Origin: a virus
IMG/VR virus record: IMGVR_UViG_3300004095_000014
Coordinates: 1-24,306 of that record
Direction: 5' to 3' (one strand)
Length of the DNA: 24,306 nt
Shown: positions 5,442 to 23,349 of the stretch, in pieces
Layout of the letters: each line of letters opens with the position of its first letter
Position numbering within the stretch: the stretch's first letter is position 1
Translations under genes and position numbers: made by a program
Notes under the pieces: generated by a model
What the model was told of the DNA's origin: nothing
What the model saw: only the letters and a program-made list of their open reading frames with translations
The model's database searches: none

Positions 5442-5449
5442 TATTTATG
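5442..5449 (-). promoter_or_regulatory. T4-type late promoter box CATAAATA
   Basis: On the minus strand this reads CATAAATA, matching the NATAAATA/TATAAATA box used by the T4-type late sigma factor. It lies directly after the gp16 stop and 17 bases before the ATG of the 203-residue gene, with an AGGA site between. Confidence 0.7.
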
Positions 5450-5950
5450 TTAATTGTCTTTTTGTGCTCTGTCATTAAGCAGACGTTCAAGCAAATCGTT
5501 ACGTGTTAATACTTGTCCTTGTGCAGTTGGAATATCACCTAACTCTCCAGATTTTTTAGCCGCATCTTGATCCAACTTTAATTTACGCAATTGTAAATCA
5601 ATCATTTTTAATTTTTTATTAAGTTTGGTAGTTTTGGCAGTTAGTGCATGACCTAGCATAGTACCAGCTACTGCAAATAGTTCAGCTGAATATCTACTGT
5701 CTACATTCATTCCGAGATCTGATAAATCCTGATAACTTTGTTTAGCAAGGTCAGCTAGTTCATCTAATTCTCTATCTGATGCAGCCAAATCTCTAATGGC
5801 CGGTAAAGCTTCGTCTATCTTGTCTATTGTTTCATCAATATGTACAATAGCATCACGAGTTTCTTCCGGGGTCATATTTTCAACAACAGGTGGATCTTGT
5901 TCGATATCAAGTTTATCAAATCCAAATAGGGTTTCTAAATTTTTTGTCAT
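5450..5950 (-). CDS. gp16: Terminase small subunit, gp16-like
   Basis: The 166 residues match the length of T4 gp16 (164). The centre is a helical hairpin: a long acidic helix at about 28-75 followed by NVDSRYSAELFAVAGTMLGH (80-99) and a Lys/Leu-rich helix LNKKLKMIDLQLRKLK. This corresponds to the 'ADSPRHMEVFATLMGQ ... LHKDMKDI' core of T4 gp16 in register and spacing. The last third (DIPTAQGQVLTRNDLLERLLND) resembles the T4 'GAVPTGQMNIQN ... G/STEL' tail. gp16 forms a ring that recognises DNA and stimulates the gp17 packaging motor; gp17 is not in this window. No clear Shine-Dalgarno precedes the ATG, and a short hairpin contains its first two bases. It is separated from the gp4-like gene by 32 bases. 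Confidence 0.8.
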   Translation of the reverse strand: MTKNLETLFGFDKLDIEQDPPVVENMTPEETRDAIVHIDETIDKIDEALPAIRDLAASDRELDELADLAKQSYQDLSDLGMNVDSRYSAELFAVAGTMLGHALTAKTTKLNKKLKMIDLQLRKLKLDQDAAKKSGELGDIPTAQGQVLTRNDLLERLLNDRAQKDN

Positions 5951-5967
5951 ACTGTTATTTACAGTAT
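5949..5967 (-). promoter_or_regulatory. Hairpin overlapping the gp16 start codon
   Basis: The minus strand reads ATACTG-TAAATAA-CAGTAT, a perfect 6-bp stem with a 7-base loop. The last two stem bases are the A and T of the gp16 ATG. The loop also contains GTAAATA, a variant of the late box. It could limit gp16 translation, or simply be a late promoter half-site; the sequence does not decide. Confidence 0.4.
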
Positions 5968-7977: not shown

Positions 7978-8634
7978 TTAAATTGTACTAGTGTTTACAG
8001 TAGCAGCACCAGTCGCAACAGATCCTACAGTATAAGCAATAGATTGACCAACCCCGGTTGGAGTACCAGCACCATTAACTTGAATAGCATTATCAAATGT
8101 AATTGCCATTGTAATCTTAACTGCTTGCGATTGCTCATAATCCATAGAATTATAGTTTACATCTTTTAAATAGCAACCAAGGATTTGCCATTGCTCTAAT
8201 ACGTTAGGTTCATGTGTACCGTTGCCGCCATCAAGCACTTGCAATTGAATTGTAAATTTATAATCAATGCCAGATGCAGCTGAACTTTGTTCCATAAAAT
8301 CCAATTGCTTTTGTAGTTGCTCGCCAACTAAACGACTTACATTACCTTGTGCATCGTCACGTAGGTCACATGTGACATCTTGCCATGTATGTTTACCTGC
8401 AATTTTAATTGTACTGTTATAAATTGGTAATTTTATTTCTTCGAACTGCACATGTGGACGATCAAACTTCATAACTTGTTTAGTTAATTCTGTTGTAGGA
8501 GTGCTAACGCCAAAGTTACTAAAGAAAACGCGATAACGATACGTCAATTTAGGCATTAATAAGCCTTGGGTTGATGCGCTTTGGCCGTCTGCTCCTAGAG
8601 GAACGGTCATGTTAGTTAGTGAGGATGTTGCCAT
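7978..8634 (-). CDS. gp19: Tail tube protein gp19-like
   Basis: This 218-residue protein follows the sheath gene, as in T4. LTYRYRVFFSNFG (30-42), QVMKFDRPHVQFEEIKLPIYNSTIKIAGKHTW (53-84) and DDAQGNVSRLVGEQLQKQLDF are typical of gp19 of T4-like phages (T4: 163 residues), and the C-terminal part has the 'W.I.GC.L..V.Y..MDY' strands that close the ring subunit. It stacks in hexamers to make the inner tube of the contractile tail. It has its own late-type box (8656-8662) and a GGAG ribosome site 9 bases before ATG, and a terminator separates it from the sheath gene. The extra length is mostly at the two ends. Confidence 0.9.
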   Translation of the reverse strand: MATSSLTNMTVPLGADGQSASTQGLLMPKLTYRYRVFFSNFGVSTPTTELTKQVMKFDRPHVQFEEIKLPIYNSTIKIAGKHTWQDVTCDLRDDAQGNVSRLVGEQLQKQLDFMEQSSAASGIDYKFTIQLQVLDGGNGTHEPNVLEQWQILGCYLKDVNYNSMDYEQSQAVKITMAITFDNAIQVNGAGTPTGVGQSIAYTVGSVATGAATVNTSTI

Positions 8635-8655: not shown

Positions 8656-8662
8656 TATTTAG
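8656..8662 (-). promoter_or_regulatory. Late promoter box CTAAATA before gp19
   Basis: CTAAATA on the minus strand, 21 bases before the gp19 ATG and just after the sheath terminator, followed by a GGAG site. CTAAATA is a known variant of the T4-type late box in cyanophage relatives. Its repeat before several other structural genes supports it. Confidence 0.75.
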
Positions 8663-12134: not shown

Positions 12135-12141
12135 TATTTAG
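12135..12141 (-). promoter_or_regulatory. Late promoter box CTAAATA before the sheath gene
   Basis: CTAAATA on the minus strand, 28 bases before the sheath ATG, with an AAAGGA ribosome site between. Same arrangement as at gp13, gp19 and the tail fibre. Confidence 0.75.
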
Positions 12142-12190: not shown

Positions 12191-12199
12191 TAATAAATA
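12191..12199 (+). promoter_or_regulatory. Late-type box TAATAAATA directly before the HNH gene
   Basis: TAATAAATA ends five bases before the ATG at 12205, with no ribosome site. If used as a late promoter the transcript would start at or next to the ATG and be leaderless. No -35 element fits a host-type promoter here. Confidence 0.45.
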
Positions 12200-12204
12200 G
12201 ATAT

Positions 12205-12552
12205 ATGAGACCCGTGTGTTTAACCTGCAATCAACATCCTAGAGCTATATCTTATTATAGACCTAATGGTAAAATACAATATCGAAGTCGTTGTGAAAAT
12301 TGCATAAAGCGTATCCGCAACAAATCCCCAGCGAATCCACGTTGGGCCACTGCTGGGTATGTAAAGAAAATGGTATGTGAGCGATGCGGATTTAGAGCAA
12401 GATGGTCAGCACAACTTTTAGTATTTCATTTAGATGGTAATCTAAATAACACTCATGTACGTAATCTAAAAACTATCTGTCAAAATTGTGTAATTGATGT
12501 AACTAAGGCTGATTTACCGTGGCGTCCTGGAGATCTTTCACCAGACGCTTGA
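12205..12552 (+). CDS. HNH-like zinc-ribbon protein
   Basis: This 115-residue protein has two metal sites: C5-x2-C8 with C30-x2-C33, and C58-x2-C61 with C92-x2-C95. Between the last two pairs is HLDGNLNNTHVRNLKTIC (75-92), with H75-x-D77, N81/N82 and N87-L spaced as in HNH endonucleases; the final His of the classical motif is absent. Small stand-alone proteins of this design occur in T4-like marine phages and are annotated as HNH endonucleases. It could be a homing-type nuclease or a zinc-binding regulator. It is alone on its strand, has no Shine-Dalgarno, and its last 50 bases overlap the convergent dNMP kinase gene, which suggests an inserted gene. Confidence 0.85.
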   Translation: MRPVCLTCNQHPRAISYYRPNGKIQYRSRCENCIKRIRNKSPANPRWATAGYVKKMVCERCGFRARWSAQLLVFHLDGNLNNTHVRNLKTICQNCVIDVTKADLPWRPGDLSPDA

Positions 12553-13638: not shown

Positions 13639-14024
13639 TTTGCCGTAGTTACCCTGGATCTTGCACTAATTTCCGTGAATATAACGTCTTTAATTGTTGG
13701 CAATGCTTGTTTAGGTTTTGATTTTAACCATTTTTCATATTCATTATATGAATTAAATCCACGTATTAAAGCAGCACGTTCAACATATTTCCAAGTAGGC
13801 AATCCCAATTTTTTAGCAGTGGAATTTATAGGAGGTTCACCGTTGTAGTATTTTTGATTATGATGCTTACGACACAATCTGTTGTATAATGGTGCGTTAG
13901 TTTTTTTAGATATAGTGCAAATAACCTTTGGTTCAGAACAACCGGCATGGTCACACTTGGGTCTGAGACTCTTTTCAGGAACATATGGGTTGTATTTTGG
14001 ACTGGTGGATTTAAGGTTAATCAT
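13635..14024 (-). CDS. Zinc-finger protein, function unknown
   Basis: This 129-residue protein has a metal-site pattern C24-x4-C29, C36 and C51-x2-H54-H55, which suggests a treble-clef-like zinc finger of the sort seen in HNH/endonuclease VII relatives, but no complete nuclease motif is visible. After it comes a helical Lys-rich part (WKYVERAALIRGFNSYNEYEKWLKSKP, 78-104). It is coupled by ATGA overlaps to the exonuclease upstream and the acetyltransferase downstream, so it is part of the early-type cassette. DNA or RNA binding is a guess from charge and zinc site. Confidence 0.78.
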   Translation of the reverse strand: MINLKSTSPKYNPYVPEKSLRPKCDHAGCSEPKVICTISKKTNAPLYNRLCRKHHNQKYYNGEPPINSTAKKLGLPTWKYVERAALIRGFNSYNEYEKWLKSKPKQALPTIKDVIFTEISARSRVTTAK

Positions 14025-14548
14025 TTAAGTTTCGTTACATTTAGGTGCTTAAGAGTTTTCTGTAACATTTCGATTTGACGACGACAATCTTCTAATGCGT
14101 GATGTGATGTAGGGGGTTTCGGACAATCAGGCCATAGACTGTAGACCGTACGAGCGTCTCGAATTTTGTAATATTGCCAGGGTTGTTTTTTATTTCTTGA
14201 ACGATATGCATGTTCTAATATATTCATATCATATGTCGGGCCATTTGCCCAGATAAAATCATGTTGCCATGCAATTTTATATAGCTCATCTAAGGCATCG
14301 TCTAAAGGAATACGATTTTCTTCGTTAAATGCTTCCTCTTGTGCTTCTGCACTCTGAGTAGACCACCATGTTACAGTTTGATCATTAATAACTCGATCTT
14401 CTTGACTTTCTAAAGTCACACGAGAATAGAAATGTTTTTCGTAGTATCCAGTTCCAAATGGATCAAACGATTGTGCAGCAATCGTTAAAATAGTGGCATC
14501 TGGTGTAGTGGCCAGTCCTTCAATGTCTATCATTAAATGTAAGCTCAT
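14021..14548 (-). CDS. DEDDh 3'-5' exonuclease, DexA/RNase T-like
   Basis: This 175-residue protein has the four acidic residues and the His of the DEDDh superfamily in order: D8 and E10 (LMIDIEGL), D107 (WANGPTYDMNIL) and H149/H150 with D154 (SHHALEDC). The RDARTVYSLWP segment (130-140) and the overall form match the T4 DexA / DUF5051 type exonucleases. Members degrade single-stranded DNA or RNA from the 3' end; phage versions are thought to recycle host DNA or trim ends. The ATG is the predicted transcription start of the host-type promoter at 14555-14584. No ribosome site lies upstream. It is the first gene of the exonuclease, zinc-finger, acetyltransferase and kinase operon. Confidence 0.9.
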   Translation of the reverse strand: MSLHLMIDIEGLATTPDATILTIAAQSFDPFGTGYYEKHFYSRVTLESQEDRVINDQTVTWWSTQSAEAQEEAFNEENRIPLDDALDELYKIAWQHDFIWANGPTYDMNILEHAYRSRNKKQPWQYYKIRDARTVYSLWPDCPKPPTSHHALEDCRRQIEMLQKTLKHLNVTKLK

Positions 14549-14554
14549 ATTGCT

Positions 14555-14584
14555 ATTATAGCAATACTATTACATCATAGTCAA
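14555..14584 (-). promoter_or_regulatory. Host-type sigma70 promoter for the exonuclease operon, extended -10
   Basis: On the minus strand: -35 TTGACT (14579-14584), an 18-base spacer, and -10 TATAAT (14555-14560) with a TGC extension. Seven bases past the -10 is 14548, the A of the exonuclease ATG, so the transcript should be leaderless. A 7-bp inverted repeat (ATTGCTA / TAGCAAT, 14549-14565) overlaps the -10 and may bind a regulator. Confidence 0.8.
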
Positions 14585-14591
14585 CAATTGT

Positions 14592-15416
14592 TTAACCGAA
14601 ACAATCTTCAAATAATTCTTCTCGAGTTTTATCACACCGCATACCCTTAATACCATTTTCGCTTAGACTAATAACACGTAGATTGGTATAATGTCCGATA
14701 ATATATGGTGGTATGCAATCACGAAAACCCTGTTGTATTGAATAGATATGATCCAGGGAATTATGCGAACGATTTAATCTCGTAGGATTTATATCGTCAA
14801 AATGATTTCGCCAGCTTTCCTCTGTAAATTTCCATACAGCATCATAATAAATCCGGCGATCTGATCTTTCTTCACGACGAGTGCAACCTCGGGATACCGC
14901 TTTCTGGTAGATTTTTTCTTTCACTTCTTTAAGTTTACTGGGATTATCTACTCCGTATTGTTCAAGCCAGGTTTCTTTCGCTTTTACAGCATACGCCTTT
15001 GGATCTCTATCGCGTTCTTCCCAGGGTTTATGCGCACCTGTTGTGAATCCATTAGTAAAATTTTTGTTAGCTTTTTTCGATTTATCAGGATCTTTGCTGC
15101 GCCAATGCCCACTTCCTTTTGTAGTTTCACTAACTTTTTTTGCTACATCTTTTCTGCTTGATTTGAAATCAATATAGGTTAGGTATCTATTTTCCCACCA
15201 TTTAACTTCCTGTCCAGTTTCAGGACATTTGGGTATTTCCCATATATCGTTTAAGATATGCCATACTCTTTGTTTGGGTTTCGCAGTAATTGGTAGAAAG
15301 ATTGTCTTTACTAATATCTGTTGCCAGAGATCAGGATGTGTTCTAACTAGGTATCTGGTAGCAGATTTATTATAGGATGTATCGTTATCGATAATGGTTT
15401 GTAGTATGTTTTTCAT
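14592..15416 (-). CDS. Free-standing homing endonuclease-like HNH protein
   Basis: This 274-residue protein ends with a DHIYS...GF...P.IIGHYTNLR.ISLSENG.KG segment (222-258), the HNH form with D222-H223, N245 and N254 that is found in phage homing endonucleases. Upstream is WLEQYGVDNPSKLKEVKEK (150-168), a NUMOD-like DNA-binding stretch common beside such domains, and a CPETGQE zinc-knuckle-like turn (64-70). It lies between gp13 and the exonuclease operon, has its own host-type promoter, and is not part of a visible intron or intein, so I call it free-standing. Such enzymes cut a relative lacking the gene and spread it by repair. Cleavage site and activity are unproven. Confidence 0.85.
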   Translation of the reverse strand: MKNILQTIIDNDTSYNKSATRYLVRTHPDLWQQILVKTIFLPITAKPKQRVWHILNDIWEIPKCPETGQEVKWWENRYLTYIDFKSSRKDVAKKVSETTKGSGHWRSKDPDKSKKANKNFTNGFTTGAHKPWEERDRDPKAYAVKAKETWLEQYGVDNPSKLKEVKEKIYQKAVSRGCTRREERSDRRIYYDAVWKFTEESWRNHFDDINPTRLNRSHNSLDHIYSIQQGFRDCIPPYIIGHYTNLRVISLSENGIKGMRCDKTREELFEDCFG

Positions 15417-15423
15417 ACTACTA

Positions 15424-15452
15424 TTTATATACTATCCGATAACTCAAGTCAA
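15424..15452 (-). promoter_or_regulatory. Host-type sigma70 promoter of the homing endonuclease; contains a TATAAATA box
   Basis: Minus strand: -35 TTGACT (15447-15452), 17-base spacer, -10 TATAAA (15424-15429). Predicted start is one base before the ATG at 15416. The -10 is also part of TATAAATA (15422-15429), a perfect late box, so the same site could be used late as well. Confidence 0.75.
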
Positions 15453-15467
15453 TCTTTTCTCATCCAA

Positions 15468-16238
15468 TTAGCCAATTATCCAGGTAAGCGGAAAACTGCC
15501 ATCTACATAATTCTTTAAATCTTCAAGACATTGTGCCATTAATTCTTTAGCATCGGCTTTCATGGCAGCACCATTTAGACTTGTTCCGCCTTGTGGGCCG
15601 GCTATTGTACCAAATTTTTCACGGGCATCGCCGATAATCATTTTGCAATTAGCATACATGAAATTACGTAACCATTGACGAATTTGAAAATCACTCAACA
15701 AATTTACTTCAGGCTTTAAGTTGTAAGTCCATAATAATACATTTTCGCCAACTCCTTTGGGATCACGTATAAGTTGTAGTTTTTTGGTAACCGGATTCCA
15801 AGTATAGTTCATGTAAGCACCAAACATACGTCCAGCTAATTCAACGTACTGGCTATAAAAATCATATGTAGCTAATCCGCCGGCTACGTTAAAGTTCATT
15901 AAATAAACATTTAATGTAGCTTGACTAAAAGGATCAAAATTTGAAGCATTAGGGCCAGTTGAATCGCCAAAAGTTCGTCTAAAAATTTGTCGAACTTGAA
16001 TAACCTCATCGGGTAGGTCATAAATGTTTACATTAGTAACCAATTCCATAAAGATGTAACTTTCTTCGTAGGCATTTTGAGCCCGTTGACGATAAGTGCC
16101 AATAGTATTACGATAAGCGGACTCAAAATGAGCAGGATCTAGTTCAATATCAATAATTTCGTCGGCTAATTGATATCTAACGTATTCGAATAGATCCTGT
16201 TTTAGTGTTTCTAAAGTGGATTGTGATTGTTCTGCCAT
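15468..16238 (-). CDS. gp13: Neck protein gp13-like (head completion)
   Basis: The 256 residues (T4 gp13: 309) show the gp13 pattern: an N-terminal helix ALETLK/LFEYVRYQLADEIIDIELDPAHFESAYRNTIGTYRQRAQ, then a beta-rich body with TNVNIYDLPDEVIQVRQIFRR (68-88), MFGAYMNYTWNPVTKKLQLIRDP (137-159), LWTYNLKP and a C-terminal helix followed by a SFPLTWIIG tail. In T4, gp13 and gp14 form the neck that seals the filled head and docks the tail. The gene lies between the homing endonuclease and an unknown 381-residue gene, on the opposite strand to gp14, which splits the usual 13-14-15 run. A late-type box lies 18 bases before the ATG, with the GGGAG site in a hairpin loop. Confidence 0.88.
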   Translation of the reverse strand: MAEQSQSTLETLKQDLFEYVRYQLADEIIDIELDPAHFESAYRNTIGTYRQRAQNAYEESYIFMELVTNVNIYDLPDEVIQVRQIFRRTFGDSTGPNASNFDPFSQATLNVYLMNFNVAGGLATYDFYSQYVELAGRMFGAYMNYTWNPVTKKLQLIRDPKGVGENVLLWTYNLKPEVNLLSDFQIRQWLRNFMYANCKMIIGDAREKFGTIAGPQGGTSLNGAAMKADAKELMAQCLEDLKNYVDGSFPLTWIIG

Positions 16239-16256
16239 ATGGACTCCCGGTCCATA
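16238..16256 (-). promoter_or_regulatory. Leader hairpin presenting the gp13 ribosome site
   Basis: The minus strand reads TATGGAC-CGGGA-GTCCATA, a perfect 7-bp stem with a 5-base loop. The loop holds most of the GGGAG Shine-Dalgarno, and the last paired base is the A of the ATG. This shape could either hold the site open or mask the start codon. Confidence 0.6.
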
Positions 16257-16263
16257 TATTTAG
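16257..16263 (-). promoter_or_regulatory. Late promoter box CTAAATA before gp13
   Basis: CTAAATA on the minus strand, 18 bases before the gp13 ATG, directly upstream of the leader hairpin and just past the stop of the 381-residue gene. Confidence 0.75.
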
Positions 16264-16268
16264 CAGAT

Positions 16269-17414
16269 TTACCACGCCTTTAAGATAACTAAATTTTCAT
16301 TGCTACGTCCATTATATTTAATTTCAGTAGCCTTAATGTCTTTAAATGCCTTACGAGCTGCCGGTTTACCTACACTCATAATAGATTTGATTTGCTCTTT
16401 AGGTTTCCTTAAAGTTTTTTGAACTGTAGTTACTGCATCAAATGCTACTAAGCTAGAACCTTTGATAGTAAACGTACCTGCATGTGAATCAGCAATAACA
16501 TGAACTAATTTACGTTTTGCAACATCGTATAAAAATGCTTCACTTGCTCCAACTAAACTTGCAGGAGGCAATGATTTAATTTCCAACTCTGCAAATTCTT
16601 TTAGGAATTTAAATTTTATTGCTGTACGTTCTGGACTTACTGCCTTTTTAGCCCGTGGCTTACGTTCTACTTTCTTAAGAGAAATATAAGATTGGCAATC
16701 AGCAAGTACTGTTTCGCAAAATTTTGTACAATTTTTCAATTGTGTTTTAGTAAGATGACTATATCCCTCTACCAATTGGGGATCTTTTCCTTCTAAAACT
16801 TCATTAAGTTCTGCTAATCTTAAATTCCATACGGCAGTAATGTTAGGAATCATTTGTGTAGCAATATTCATACCACGAATTAATGATAATGGTTTGAAAT
16901 TTGCTGTTAATTTTGCTCCAGATTCAACAAATTCATCATACATTCCTTCTAATTCGCCTGCACATTCAGACGCTTTTTCCTTCAAATGGTCTTGAATTGT
17001 AAGTTTTTGTCGAGCAGTTTCTTCTGAGGAAACTGGAGCTTTTTCTTCTATTTGTTTACCGGCTAGCAATACTGACAAATGTTCATCTAAAACAGATTGT
17101 TCATGTTCTTTGAGAACAAGCCCTAATACAGTCATTCTGCAAATCCATCCAGTAGTAGGTGTAACACGACTGTCAGGAATGCCTCGCATTATTTTTGCTT
17201 CTTTAGGTTTTTGATTTAATTCAAAATATTGAATAATCAAATCTCTAGCTTCTTTTTTACCATAGGAATAGTTATACCAATTAAATGCTTTGGTTAACGC
17301 ACCAATACGAAAGTCATCTTCTGGCTGGATTTTCCATTCTGGTTCTGGACCAAGAAATTTAGCATCTTCACCTTTTGGTGTCAAACGTTTAATTACAGGT
17401 TGTGTTTTTGTCAT
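16269..17414 (-). CDS. Conserved-looking 381-residue phage protein, function unknown
   Basis: I do not recognise this protein. It is mostly helical and basic. An N-terminal part has FRIGALTKAFNWYNYSYGKKEARD (35-58) and GWICRMTVLGLVLKEHE; the middle is an all-helical acidic stretch (about 130-225); around 250-265 comes a Lys/Arg/Pro-rich linker (VERKPRAKKAVSP); and the C-terminal part is beta-rich (ASEAFLYDVAKRKLVHVIA, TFTIKGSSLVAFD), ending in ATEIKYNGRSNENLVILKAW. The C-terminal block looks like a small DNA- or protein-binding fold attached to a helical arm. It is driven by a host-type promoter and not by a late box, so it is probably early or middle and not a virion protein. Its ATG follows the promoter by three bases of leader. 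Confidence 0.85.
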   Translation of the reverse strand: MTKTQPVIKRLTPKGEDAKFLGPEPEWKIQPEDDFRIGALTKAFNWYNYSYGKKEARDLIIQYFELNQKPKEAKIMRGIPDSRVTPTTGWICRMTVLGLVLKEHEQSVLDEHLSVLLAGKQIEEKAPVSSEETARQKLTIQDHLKEKASECAGELEGMYDEFVESGAKLTANFKPLSLIRGMNIATQMIPNITAVWNLRLAELNEVLEGKDPQLVEGYSHLTKTQLKNCTKFCETVLADCQSYISLKKVERKPRAKKAVSPERTAIKFKFLKEFAELEIKSLPPASLVGASEAFLYDVAKRKLVHVIADSHAGTFTIKGSSLVAFDAVTTVQKTLRKPKEQIKSIMSVGKPAARKAFKDIKATEIKYNGRSNENLVILKAW

Positions 17415-17423
17415 AGTATCTAC

Positions 17424-17452
17424 AGTATATGTGTTAAGTTAAAAAATGTCAA
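17424..17452 (-). promoter_or_regulatory. Host-type sigma70 promoter of the 381-residue gene
   Basis: Minus strand: consensus -35 TTGACA (17447-17452), 17-base spacer, -10 TATACT (17424-17429). The predicted start is about three bases before the ATG at 17414, with no ribosome site. The TGA inside the -35 is the stop codon of the 94-residue gene. Confidence 0.8.
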
Positions 17453-17733
17453 CCTAATAACAGTGCCAAAGTTATGTACTGTTCTAAGTTATCTAATAAA
17501 AGTACTGCTGAGTCTATTAAATCTTTATATCGCGCAGTTTCTTTATTAAGGCGTCTGCATTCTACTGATTCTCGACTAATTTCAGTTACCATTGAATCAA
17601 TATTCCTTACCATTTTTTGCAGATCACGAATAGATCTCTTGTTTTTAACAGAGGTTACTATCTGTTTTTCTGCTTTTGATAAACGATCTACTATATCATG
17701 CAGTCCGTAATTGAAAGTGTTTATTTGATCCAT
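17449..17733 (-). CDS. Small helical coiled-coil protein, function unknown
   Basis: This 94-residue protein is almost wholly helical and charged, with heptad-like spacing of Leu/Ile/Val (IVDRLSKAEKQIVTSV, IRDLQKMVRNIDSMVTEI, LIDSAVLLLDNLEQYI). It ends in a short hydrophobic LALLLG, too short for a membrane anchor. One cysteine (C58). No family is recognised. It is the first gene of the leftward early-type group, with a host-type promoter whose predicted start is the A of its ATG. Its stop overlaps the next promoter. A small regulator or adaptor is plausible but unsupported. Confidence 0.75.
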   Translation of the reverse strand: MDQINTFNYGLHDIVDRLSKAEKQIVTSVKNKRSIRDLQKMVRNIDSMVTEISRESVECRRLNKETARYKDLIDSAVLLLDNLEQYITLALLLG

Positions 17734-17739
17734 GTTGCA

Positions 17740-17768
17740 ATTATATATCGAATGTATTTAATAGTCAA
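17740..17768 (-). promoter_or_regulatory. Host-type sigma70 promoter of the 94-residue gene
   Basis: Minus strand: -35 TTGACT (17763-17768), 17-base spacer, -10 TATAAT (17740-17745). Six bases separate the -10 from the ATG, so the predicted start is the A of the ATG. It lies in the 60-base gap shared with the divergent gp14 gene. Confidence 0.85.
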
Positions 17769-17779
17769 CCATAAATTAA

Positions 17780-17786
17780 CTAAATA
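17780..17786 (+). promoter_or_regulatory. Late promoter box CTAAATA before gp14
   Basis: CTAAATA on the plus strand, seven bases before the gp14 ATG, with no ribosome site between. Predicted transcription would start within about two bases of the ATG. It is the only structural-gene box in the window without a leader. Confidence 0.65.
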
Positions 17787-17793
17787 CTAGACT

Positions 17794-19146
17794 ATGCCAA
17801 GACTGTCACTTTATAGGCCTAATAGAACTAATGATTATCAATTTTTGGATCGTATAATTTCCGAAAAGTACACTGTTGGCGGTCTCGATATATTTGTTCA
17901 CAAATACATGGGACCAATAGTAGATACTACAGATAATCCCGGTAATGCCAATGCCACACTGCCTGTTTATAATTCAGAAAATCCTCTTTTCATCGAAGAT
18001 TTGCTATTATTAGAAAACAGAGATCGTTCTTATGACCCAAACATTTATATCATGCGTGGAGTTTATACGCATCAAGATATTAACTTTGATTTAACACAAT
18101 TTGGGTTGTTTTTAAACAACGATACACTATACATTACGTTTCATTACAATGATATGATTGATACATATGGACGTAAATTGATGACAGGCGATGTTTTGGA
18201 ATTACCTAATATGAAGGACTATTATCCACTAAATCAAAATATTACAAGAGCTTTGCCTAAATACTACGTAATACAAGACGCTGCTTATGCTGCTGAGGGA
18301 TTTAGTCAAACTTGGTTGCCACATTTATGGCGTGTTAAAGCTACTCCTATGGTTAATGCACAGGAATATCAACAAATTACCAATCAGCCTTTAATGCCAG
18401 ATAACATTTGGGATAATGGAAACTTTTATCCGCAGGGTATGGTAGTGAATGACGGTGGTAAATTTTATGAAGCCACTAAAAATGTTCCTCCCGGAACTGA
18501 TATAAATGATCCTGCATATTGGGGATTGATTGAAAATCCCACTACTATAGGGGATGTTAATTCGACCCGTAAAAAAGATTTAGCTATTAATGATGCATTA
18601 GTTGTACAGGCCAATGTTGATGTTCCGTTATCAGGTTACGACAATGTATCATTTTATATATTGCCAACTACACCTAGCGAACAGCCATCAAACGAGGGAT
18701 TATTTACTGATCAAACAAGTCCAACTGTCGACGGAGCACAGTCAGGAGAAGGTACTAGTCCAAAAAGTTTCGGGTGGACTATGGGATACTTAACTGGAGA
18801 TAAATTAGCTCCGAACGGATTACCAGTTACGCCCGGTGTTAGTTTTCCGCTTGGGCCTGCATCTGGCGACTATTGCTTGCGATTAGATTATTTCCCTAAT
18901 AGGCTGTTTCGTTTCAACGGTAGTAATTGGATTGCCATCAGTGACGATGTACGTACTCCATTAGATTGGGGCACACAAAATCTTACACAACGTAGTTCTT
19001 TTGTTAATAATCCATATACTGTATCAACTAGTGATCAAGGCAATATACCATCGCGTCAATCATTATCTGAGCTGCTTAAACCGCAAGCTGATAATGGTAA
19101 CGAAGGTGGAAATTTACCACCTAACCCAAGACCCCCAGGACGATAA
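17794..19146 (+). CDS. gp14: Neck protein gp14-like with extra C-terminal modules
   Basis: T4 gp14 has 256 residues; this has 450. Residues 1-200 are the neck core: FLDRIISEKYTVGGLDIFVHKYMGP (18-42), a two-strand IYIMRGVYTHQDINF region, GLFLNNDTLYITFHYNDMIDTYGRKLMTGDVLELPNMKDY and YYVIQDAAYAAEGFSQTWLPHLWRVKATPM. The extension has a carbohydrate-binding-module-5/12-like unit at about 205-249 (IWDNGNFYPQGMVVNDGGKF ... YWGLIE), and a GDYCLRLDYFPNRLFRFNGSNW module at about 356-378, then a Pro/Asn/Gly-rich tail. gp14 joins gp13 to complete the head and receive the tail. It overlaps gp15 by TAATG. The insertions look like surface decorations. Confidence 0.88.
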   Translation: MPRLSLYRPNRTNDYQFLDRIISEKYTVGGLDIFVHKYMGPIVDTTDNPGNANATLPVYNSENPLFIEDLLLLENRDRSYDPNIYIMRGVYTHQDINFDLTQFGLFLNNDTLYITFHYNDMIDTYGRKLMTGDVLELPNMKDYYPLNQNITRALPKYYVIQDAAYAAEGFSQTWLPHLWRVKATPMVNAQEYQQITNQPLMPDNIWDNGNFYPQGMVVNDGGKFYEATKNVPPGTDINDPAYWGLIENPTTIGDVNSTRKKDLAINDALVVQANVDVPLSGYDNVSFYILPTTPSEQPSNEGLFTDQTSPTVDGAQSGEGTSPKSFGWTMGYLTGDKLAPNGLPVTPGVSFPLGPASGDYCLRLDYFPNRLFRFNGSNWIAISDDVRTPLDWGTQNLTQRSSFVNNPYTVSTSDQGNIPSRQSLSELLKPQADNGNEGGNLPPNPRPPGR

Positions 19147-23342: not shown

Positions 23343-23349
23343 TATTTAG
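23343..23349 (-). promoter_or_regulatory. Late promoter box CTAAATA before the tail fibre
   Basis: CTAAATA on the minus strand, 24 bases before the tail-fibre ATG, followed by a TAGGAA site. It follows a hairpin, as at the sheath/gp19 junction. Confidence 0.75.

Follow-up and report, generated by a model that had tools for sequence, protein, structure and literature searches.

Promoters and start codons in the window

The window analyzed in this study is a 24,306-nt fragment of a T4-like large-phage record (IMG/VR virus record IMGVR_UViG_3300004095_000014, positions 1 to 24,306), and the subject is the distance between its promoters and the start codons of its genes. A preliminary description, made from the sequence alone, had reported four host-type promoters at positions 14549 to 17768, ending about six bases before ATG (nine at a 381-residue gene), and had proposed a temporal switch in which early genes use leaderless translation and late genes use Shine-Dalgarno (SD) sites. 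Judging from the related records compared here, these uncultured giant bacterial viruses seem to start many messages on the first codon, the choice being kept gene by gene, in early and late genes alike.

The sheath protein of the window was 43% identical over 66% of the length to that of Agrobacterium phage Atu_ph07. The same region was present in reverse orientation in a 154-kb IMG/VR record (G001), with three genes at 100% protein identity.

Three of the four promoters, all on the minus strand, were sigma70-type sites matching the consensus at 11 of 12 positions. TTGACT-N18-TATAAT (14555..14584) lies 6 nt from ATG 14548 of an exonuclease-like gene (14021..14548; PF16473, phrog_255), with the expected +1 at the A of ATG. 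TTGACT-N17-TATAAT (17740..17768) lies 6 nt from ATG 17733 of a 94-aa gene with no assigned function (17449..17733), and TTGACA-N17-TATACT (17424..17452) lies 9 nt from ATG 17414 of the 381-aa gene (16269..17414; phrog_11903), for which a 3-nt leader, ACT, is expected. These were the three 11/12 sites between positions 8000 and 24306. The whole window had four such sites, three of them with an ATG 5–9 nt downstream; in dinucleotide shuffles of the window, near-ATG sites of this kind had a mean of 0.18 and a maximum of 2, and 0/200 shuffles reached 3. The -10 box of the exonuclease promoter is located inside an inverted repeat, TATTGCTA-TAA-TAGCAATA (14549–14571), which extends to the ATG; similar repeats were seen at G002 21774 and G003 205807.

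The fourth promoter, TTGACT-N17-TATAAA, is located 7 nt, not six, before ATG 15416 of a homing-endonuclease-like gene (14592..15416, minus strand; phrog_3339, E 3.5e-05) and fits the host consensus less well than the other three. Its TATAAA is overlapped by a T4-type late box, TATAAATA (15422..15429, minus strand), 5 nt from the ATG, and in the G006 ortholog, too, this late core lies 5 nt from the ATG. Since this box is a perfect T4 late octamer, a host-type promoter is insecure for this gene, which is better read as TATAAATA-N5-ATG. An SD core was absent before each of the four genes, as had been described.

Three late boxes in the leaderless position had been overlooked. On the minus strand, TAAATA at 5956..5961, within the hairpin ATACTGT-AAATA-ACAGTAT, is 5 nt from ATG 5950 of a 166-aa late gene (5450..5950; phrog_16202). 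On the plus strand, TAAATA at 12194..12199 is 5 nt from ATG 12205 of an HNH-endonuclease-like gene (12205..12552; phrog_2255), late leaderless in 3/3 orthologs. Also on the plus strand, TAAATA at 17781..17786 is 7 nt from ATG 17794 of a late virion structural protein gene (17794..19146; phrog_11591), for which a 3-nt leader, ACT, is expected and was predicted in 4/6 orthologs. The five structural genes reported to have late boxes 17–28 nt upstream were confirmed, all on the minus strand: a 203-aa gene (box 5442..5447, 17 nt to ATG 5424), the head-tail adaptor (16257..16262, 18 nt to ATG 16238), tail tube (8656..8661, 21 nt to ATG 8634), a 559-aa gene (23343..23348, 24 nt to ATG 23318), and tail sheath (12135..12140, 28 nt to ATG 12106).

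Spacing of promoters in related virus records

Distances were profiled in six related IMG/VR virus records (G001–G006, the leaderless clade set), an outgroup record (G007), and phages T4, KVP40, Syn9, PA5oct, CBB, and Atu_ph07 (first 300 of 490 kb); phiM12, Cr30, Phosso, SCTP-2, BUCT-ZZ01, V45v66, and phiOC entered a pattern search only, outside the spacing profiles. Genes were greedy open reading frame (ORF) calls of 60 aa or more, made without a trained caller. Raw counts of TAAATA-N4-5-ATG without ORF context were no better than a reversed control, and ORF-anchored counts were therefore used.

The genome-wide scan of TTGAC/TATA-type promoters in the seven records gave a sharp peak at 6 nt. 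TTGACA/TATAAT with a 16–18 spacer was above chance when compared with controls and shuffles. With at least 11/12 matches, 193 of the 281 sigma70 sites had an ATG ORF within 80 nt. A distance of 5–9 nt was found for 31 of these, including 23 with exactly 6 nt, and a broad second group was located at 28–32 nt; four control motifs gave 0–4 sites at 5–9 nt. The late box behaved similarly. In G001–G006, TAAATA was found 4–5 nt before the start in 71 of 284 cases, at 6 nt in 5 and at 7 nt in 24; distances of 9–15 nt were nearly vacant, and a broad group began at 16 nt. Among 15 letter permutations of TAAATA at 4–5 nt, TAAATA (71) was followed by AAATAT (27) and ATAATA (20). The late core was usually preceded by A or C, and TATAAATA-like boxes were located upstream of late genes.

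Transcription is expected to start 7 nt downstream of the -10 hexamer in one promoter type and 5–6 nt downstream of the late octamer in the other. The peaks, 6 nt past the -10 hexamer and 4–5 nt past the late box, thus coincide with an expected +1 at the A of ATG. In the late 7–8 nt class, an A was present at -3 in 27/34 starts (20/26 and 7/8), most commonly as ACT before ATG, so that the same start site would yield a leader of exactly 3 nt. By its geometry (9 nt, leader ACT), the 381-residue gene is a predicted member of this 3-nt leader class.

No such peak was detected in G007, T4, KVP40, Syn9, PA5oct, CBB, or the 300 kb of Atu_ph07; summed over these seven genomes, late boxes at 4–8 nt numbered 11/330 and host-type promoters at 5–7 nt 7/294. 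Outgroup homologs of leaderless genes had a late box at 4–8 nt in 0/64 comparable starts and an SD motif in 33/64. The peaks recurred in 242 further loci, with 65, 72, 28, and 66 late boxes at 4, 5, 6, and 7 nt, respectively, and 60 host-type promoters at 6 nt; exact duplicates had been removed from this set, as had starts whose 25 upstream bases recur in the seven records, and near-duplicates stayed.

Among the host-type promoters, those at G002 14507, G003 75907, 78308, and 180023, and G004 16226 had a common extended TTGACCAGAAA... spacer motif, perhaps marking a dedicated early promoter family.

The proposed temporal switch, with leaderless starts for early genes and SD sites for late genes, agrees with the three leaderless host-type promoters and the five leadered structural genes of the window. 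However, with time class inferred from promoter type, late boxes at 4–8 nt were found at 108/284 genes in G001–G006, and host-type promoters at the leadered distance of 27–33 nt (78/182) outnumbered those at 5–7 nt (43/182). In the window itself, the genes at 5450–5950, 12205–12552, and 17794–19146 carry late boxes in the leaderless position. The leaderless start of the exonuclease, a gene for which the switch had been proposed, was present in only 1/6 orthologs and is not conserved. With the layout found in both promoter classes, leaderlessness is no marker of early genes, and such a switch is very improbable.

Translation signals and conservation among orthologs

For the SD and -1 base comparisons, leaderless starts were defined as late boxes at 4–7 nt and sigma70 promoters at 5–7 nt. 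Among leaderless starts, the SD motif was present at 4% of the 102 under late promoters and at 0% of the 34 under sigma70 promoters. It was present at 79% of 135 late and 75% of 91 host-type leadered starts, and at 42% of 1260 genes without a classed promoter. A pyrimidine at -1 was more frequent in leaderless than in leadered starts, both under late promoters (89/102 vs 71/135, p = 1e-8) and under sigma70 promoters (29/34 vs 50/91, p = 0.002). Downstream base composition showed no clear difference between leaderless and leadered genes.

Ortholog pairs were reciprocal best hits with both members classed, leaderless being late 4–8 nt and sigma70 5–7 or 9 nt. Sigma70 sites at the 10/12 level include chance matches, such as leaderless calls within long genes, and the sigma70 leaderless set of 45 under these classes is for this reason looser than the set of 34. 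The layout was common to 236/259 pairs (shuffle mean 135, maximum 164 over 2000) and agreed in 58/63 pairs below 50% identity. Promoter type was also kept in leaderless pairs, with 67 late-late, 22 host-host, and 1 mixed. Among the window genes, the 94-aa gene was leaderless in 5/5 members of its ortholog group (distances 6, 6, 6, 6, and 7 nt), and the 381-aa gene had leaderless or 3-nt geometry in 4/6 orthologs and was leadered in 2.

Insertions at the start of the gene at 5450–5950

The best 80 of 583 homologous loci of the 166-aa late gene gave 58 distinct upstream sequences, 50 of which had TAAATA 4–5 nt before ATG. In the remaining 8 (13 loci), another ORF begins exactly at the leaderless ATG. 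Six of these inserted ORFs were homing-endonuclease-like: L360:363-1022, L367:2171-3004, L369:2340-3008, L373:2400-3008, L380:2411-3004, and L386:2327-3016. Five were full-length relatives, of which four matched homing-endonuclease family phrog_314, one of them weakly (E 0.0012); the fifth, in L367 (the G005 gene), had no family match and was 43% identical to the first sequence of the group. The sixth, in L373, is not related to the five and matched homing-endonuclease family phrog_655. Only remnant-like short ORFs of 42 and 22 aa were found in L413 and L375.

In all 8 cases, the displaced gene had a GGAG- or AGGA-type site 7–9 nt before its first conserved codon; such an SD site was present in 0/50 undisturbed copies. 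An SD site that is present exactly when the gene is no longer first matches the prediction of leaderless translation. The first conserved codon was ATT in 6/8 and ATG in 2/8, and from the SD spacing and the protein alignment, which begins there, the first six appear to start at ATT. In L369, read by eye, no in-frame ATG, GTG, or TTG was found ahead of the ATT.

Folding of read-through RNA

Read-through RNA was folded around the AUG and compared with shuffles in which box and ATG were kept fixed. Leaderless starts folded more stably than these shuffles: the mean folding free-energy difference (ddG) was -0.88 ± 0.26 for late and -1.64 ± 0.56 for host-type leaderless starts, and -0.15 and -0.43 for leadered ones. 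AUG hairpins at rank 0.05 or below were found at 23/109 late (expected 5.5) and 13/45 sigma70 (expected 2.2) leaderless starts, counts that shift with the random shuffles (21/109 and 14/45 in another run). The effect was larger with a same-strand upstream gene (30/112 vs 5/42 at rank 0.05 or below). Several relatives of the gene at 5450–5950 had hairpins with differing arm sequences, and many had none.

Gene functions and the ribosome

A dosage explanation, in which weak leaderless starts serve low-copy proteins and SD leaders serve abundant ones, comes fairly close to an even chance in our estimate. Leadered genes include those for the sheath, tube, and adaptor proteins, one baseplate wedge protein, and bS21; the gp23 gene, with no short-distance box, carries a strong SD site. 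Among the leaderless genes are those for HNH and homing enzymes, for a gp25-like protein, a peptide deformylase, and a helicase, and for further virion proteins. Against this, several leadered genes have no assigned function, in a scan that covered 20 leadered and 20 leaderless groups. The peptide deformylase gene (phrog_2890) was observed at G003 120685 (L145:685-1131) as late leaderless.

The bS21 gene is located at 75670–75888 of G001 (L105:15670-15888), and in G001, G005, and G006 it has a late box 28 nt upstream and an SD-like site. The closest bacterial bS21 proteins were nearly all betaproteobacterial, including those of Limnohabitans and Polynucleobacter, with a best identity of 68%; these relatives suggest betaproteobacterial hosts. 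A lineage described elsewhere has predicted Bacteroidota hosts (PMC12619734) and was for that reason not equated with that of G001–G006. In another, Bacteroidetes-infecting group, phage bS21 is tied to late replication (PMC9723584).

A ribosome remodeled by phage bS21 and lowered IF3 could favor leaderless and AUU-start mRNAs. In line with this, bS21 was found in 5/6 clade records and not in outgroup G007, ATT is the apparent start codon of 6/8 displaced genes, and phage phiYS40 provides a precedent with IF2 up and IF3 down (PMC3594737). PA5oct, however, has a bS21 homolog yet no leaderless peaks, which speaks against bS21 as the cause of the layout, and G004, a fragment, shows the peaks although bS21 was not found there. 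No IF3 gene was found in the seven records by profile search (PF00707). Remodeling is thus improbable, though less so than the temporal switch. A search for RegB (PF10715) gave no match, nor did its control.

As for other neighboring genes, the proteins at 780–1175 and 1172–1537 of the window and at G001 67492 repeat the N-terminal pattern MRAxEFIxE, and in G005 a start resembling it is fused to a different C-terminal part (DUF6321 match).

Proposed mechanism

We consider it probable that there are two fixed promoter layouts, conserved per gene and not per time class, and that translation of a leaderless gene requires RNA started at the gene's own promoter. In one layout, a sigma70-type or late promoter would start the RNA at the A of the start codon itself or at a distance of exactly 3 nt upstream, the latter usually as ACU-AUG. 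The second layout, with promoters of the same types, would produce leaders of about 11–26 nt with an SD site. Read-through RNA from upstream genes would carry the AUG of a leaderless gene internally, lacking an SD site and sometimes within a hairpin, and the gene would stay silent. An AUG usable at a 5′ end only would lock translation to the gene's own promoter. From the geometry, the SD pattern, the conservation, the hairpin excess, and the SD sites before displaced genes, we infer the 5′ ends, leaderless translation, and the gating function. The leaderless reading of the preliminary description is well supported, if indirectly, by the sharp distance peaks where promoter architecture predicts them, the missing SD sites, the pyrimidine at -1, the orthologs, and the SD gain on displacement; its limitation to early genes fell away.

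A more specific account is offered tentatively, as possible but rather doubtful. The leaderless AUG may be a promoter-tied lock strengthened by AUG-hiding hairpins; homing endonucleases may home there and capture the AUG, and an SD site at the 3′ end of the insertion may rescue the displaced gene, often from AUU.

Several observations weigh against these proposals. The lack of SD sites in leaderless genes is partly forced, as the box sits in the SD position, and 23/259 ortholog pairs were discordant in layout. Hairpins were found at a minority of leaderless starts, leadered promoters were also somewhat above expectation (15/130 and 10/94), and the contrast between same- and opposite-strand upstream genes was borderline (p = 0.054). 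A symmetric-arm palindrome test around the box showed no excess in leaderless genes; folding alone showed one. Same-strand gaps were also shorter before leaderless genes, with medians of 22 (late) and 36 (sigma70) nt compared with 44 and 65 nt before leadered genes. With differences of 22–29 nt at the median, plain genome compaction could drive the layout, leaders being deleted where tolerated to save space without a regulatory role. Yet distances of 9–15 nt are almost vacant, the layout is kept per gene below 50% identity, and hairpins over the AUG suggest additional selection. We regard compaction as rather unlikely, a step behind dosage; the two are not mutually exclusive.

If a promoter-tied lock operates, it would propose a rule for why a virus retains leaderless genes. 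Start-site and promoter annotation would be corrected in many phages sequenced from the environment, one such gene alone having 583 relatives, and capture by an inserted gene would serve as a natural experiment on the needs of a gene that is no longer first on its mRNA.

Comparison with known systems

Leaderless phage mRNA classes are not new as a general idea. Thermus phage phiYS40 makes leaderless middle and late mRNAs (PMC3594737), lambda cI is a leaderless phage mRNA (PMC9031893), and phage transcripts are described as often leaderless in a paper on AR9 (PMC5312081). In a different situation, a hidden mycobacteriophage HNH gene was proposed to undergo leaderless translation (PMC11855218). 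The preliminary description had presented leaderless translation of early genes as a temporal switch not seen described for T4-like phages; for that group no report of leaderless mRNAs was found in the open-licence literature, although phiYS40 shows that leaderless phage classes as such are known. The same literature yielded no report that homing endonucleases insert at the start codons of leaderless genes.

Like phiYS40, G001–G006 would have a large set of leaderless mRNAs. Unlike phiYS40, which has a Thermus host and leaderless mRNAs of the middle/late class, G001–G006 show both layouts in both promoter classes, and confinement of the leaderless layout to one time class was not found in them. 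The Deinococcus-Thermus bacteria are similar: the start codon follows a -10 hexamer within a few bases, the mRNA is leaderless, and there is a spacing requirement (PMC12340547). There it is a host trait with the -35 as an optional enhancer, whereas in G001–G006 it is a phage trait with a full -35/-10 or a T4 late box. In T4 gene e and I-TevI, a late promoter is located inside a hairpin that hides the ribosome-binding site, and only late-initiated RNA is translated (PMC3014915). That late RNA retains its ribosome-binding site, whereas the RNA of G001–G006 would begin at AUG. With T4-type late promoters (TATAAATA), the clade shares the core box TAAATA, but the leaderless-placement peak is absent in T4, KVP40, and Syn9. 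If true, no T4-like lineage before G001–G006 would, as far as the literature was searched, have had a large and conserved set of leaderless genes controlled by two different promoter systems; the bS21 of these phages is similar to that of betaproteobacteria from fresh water.

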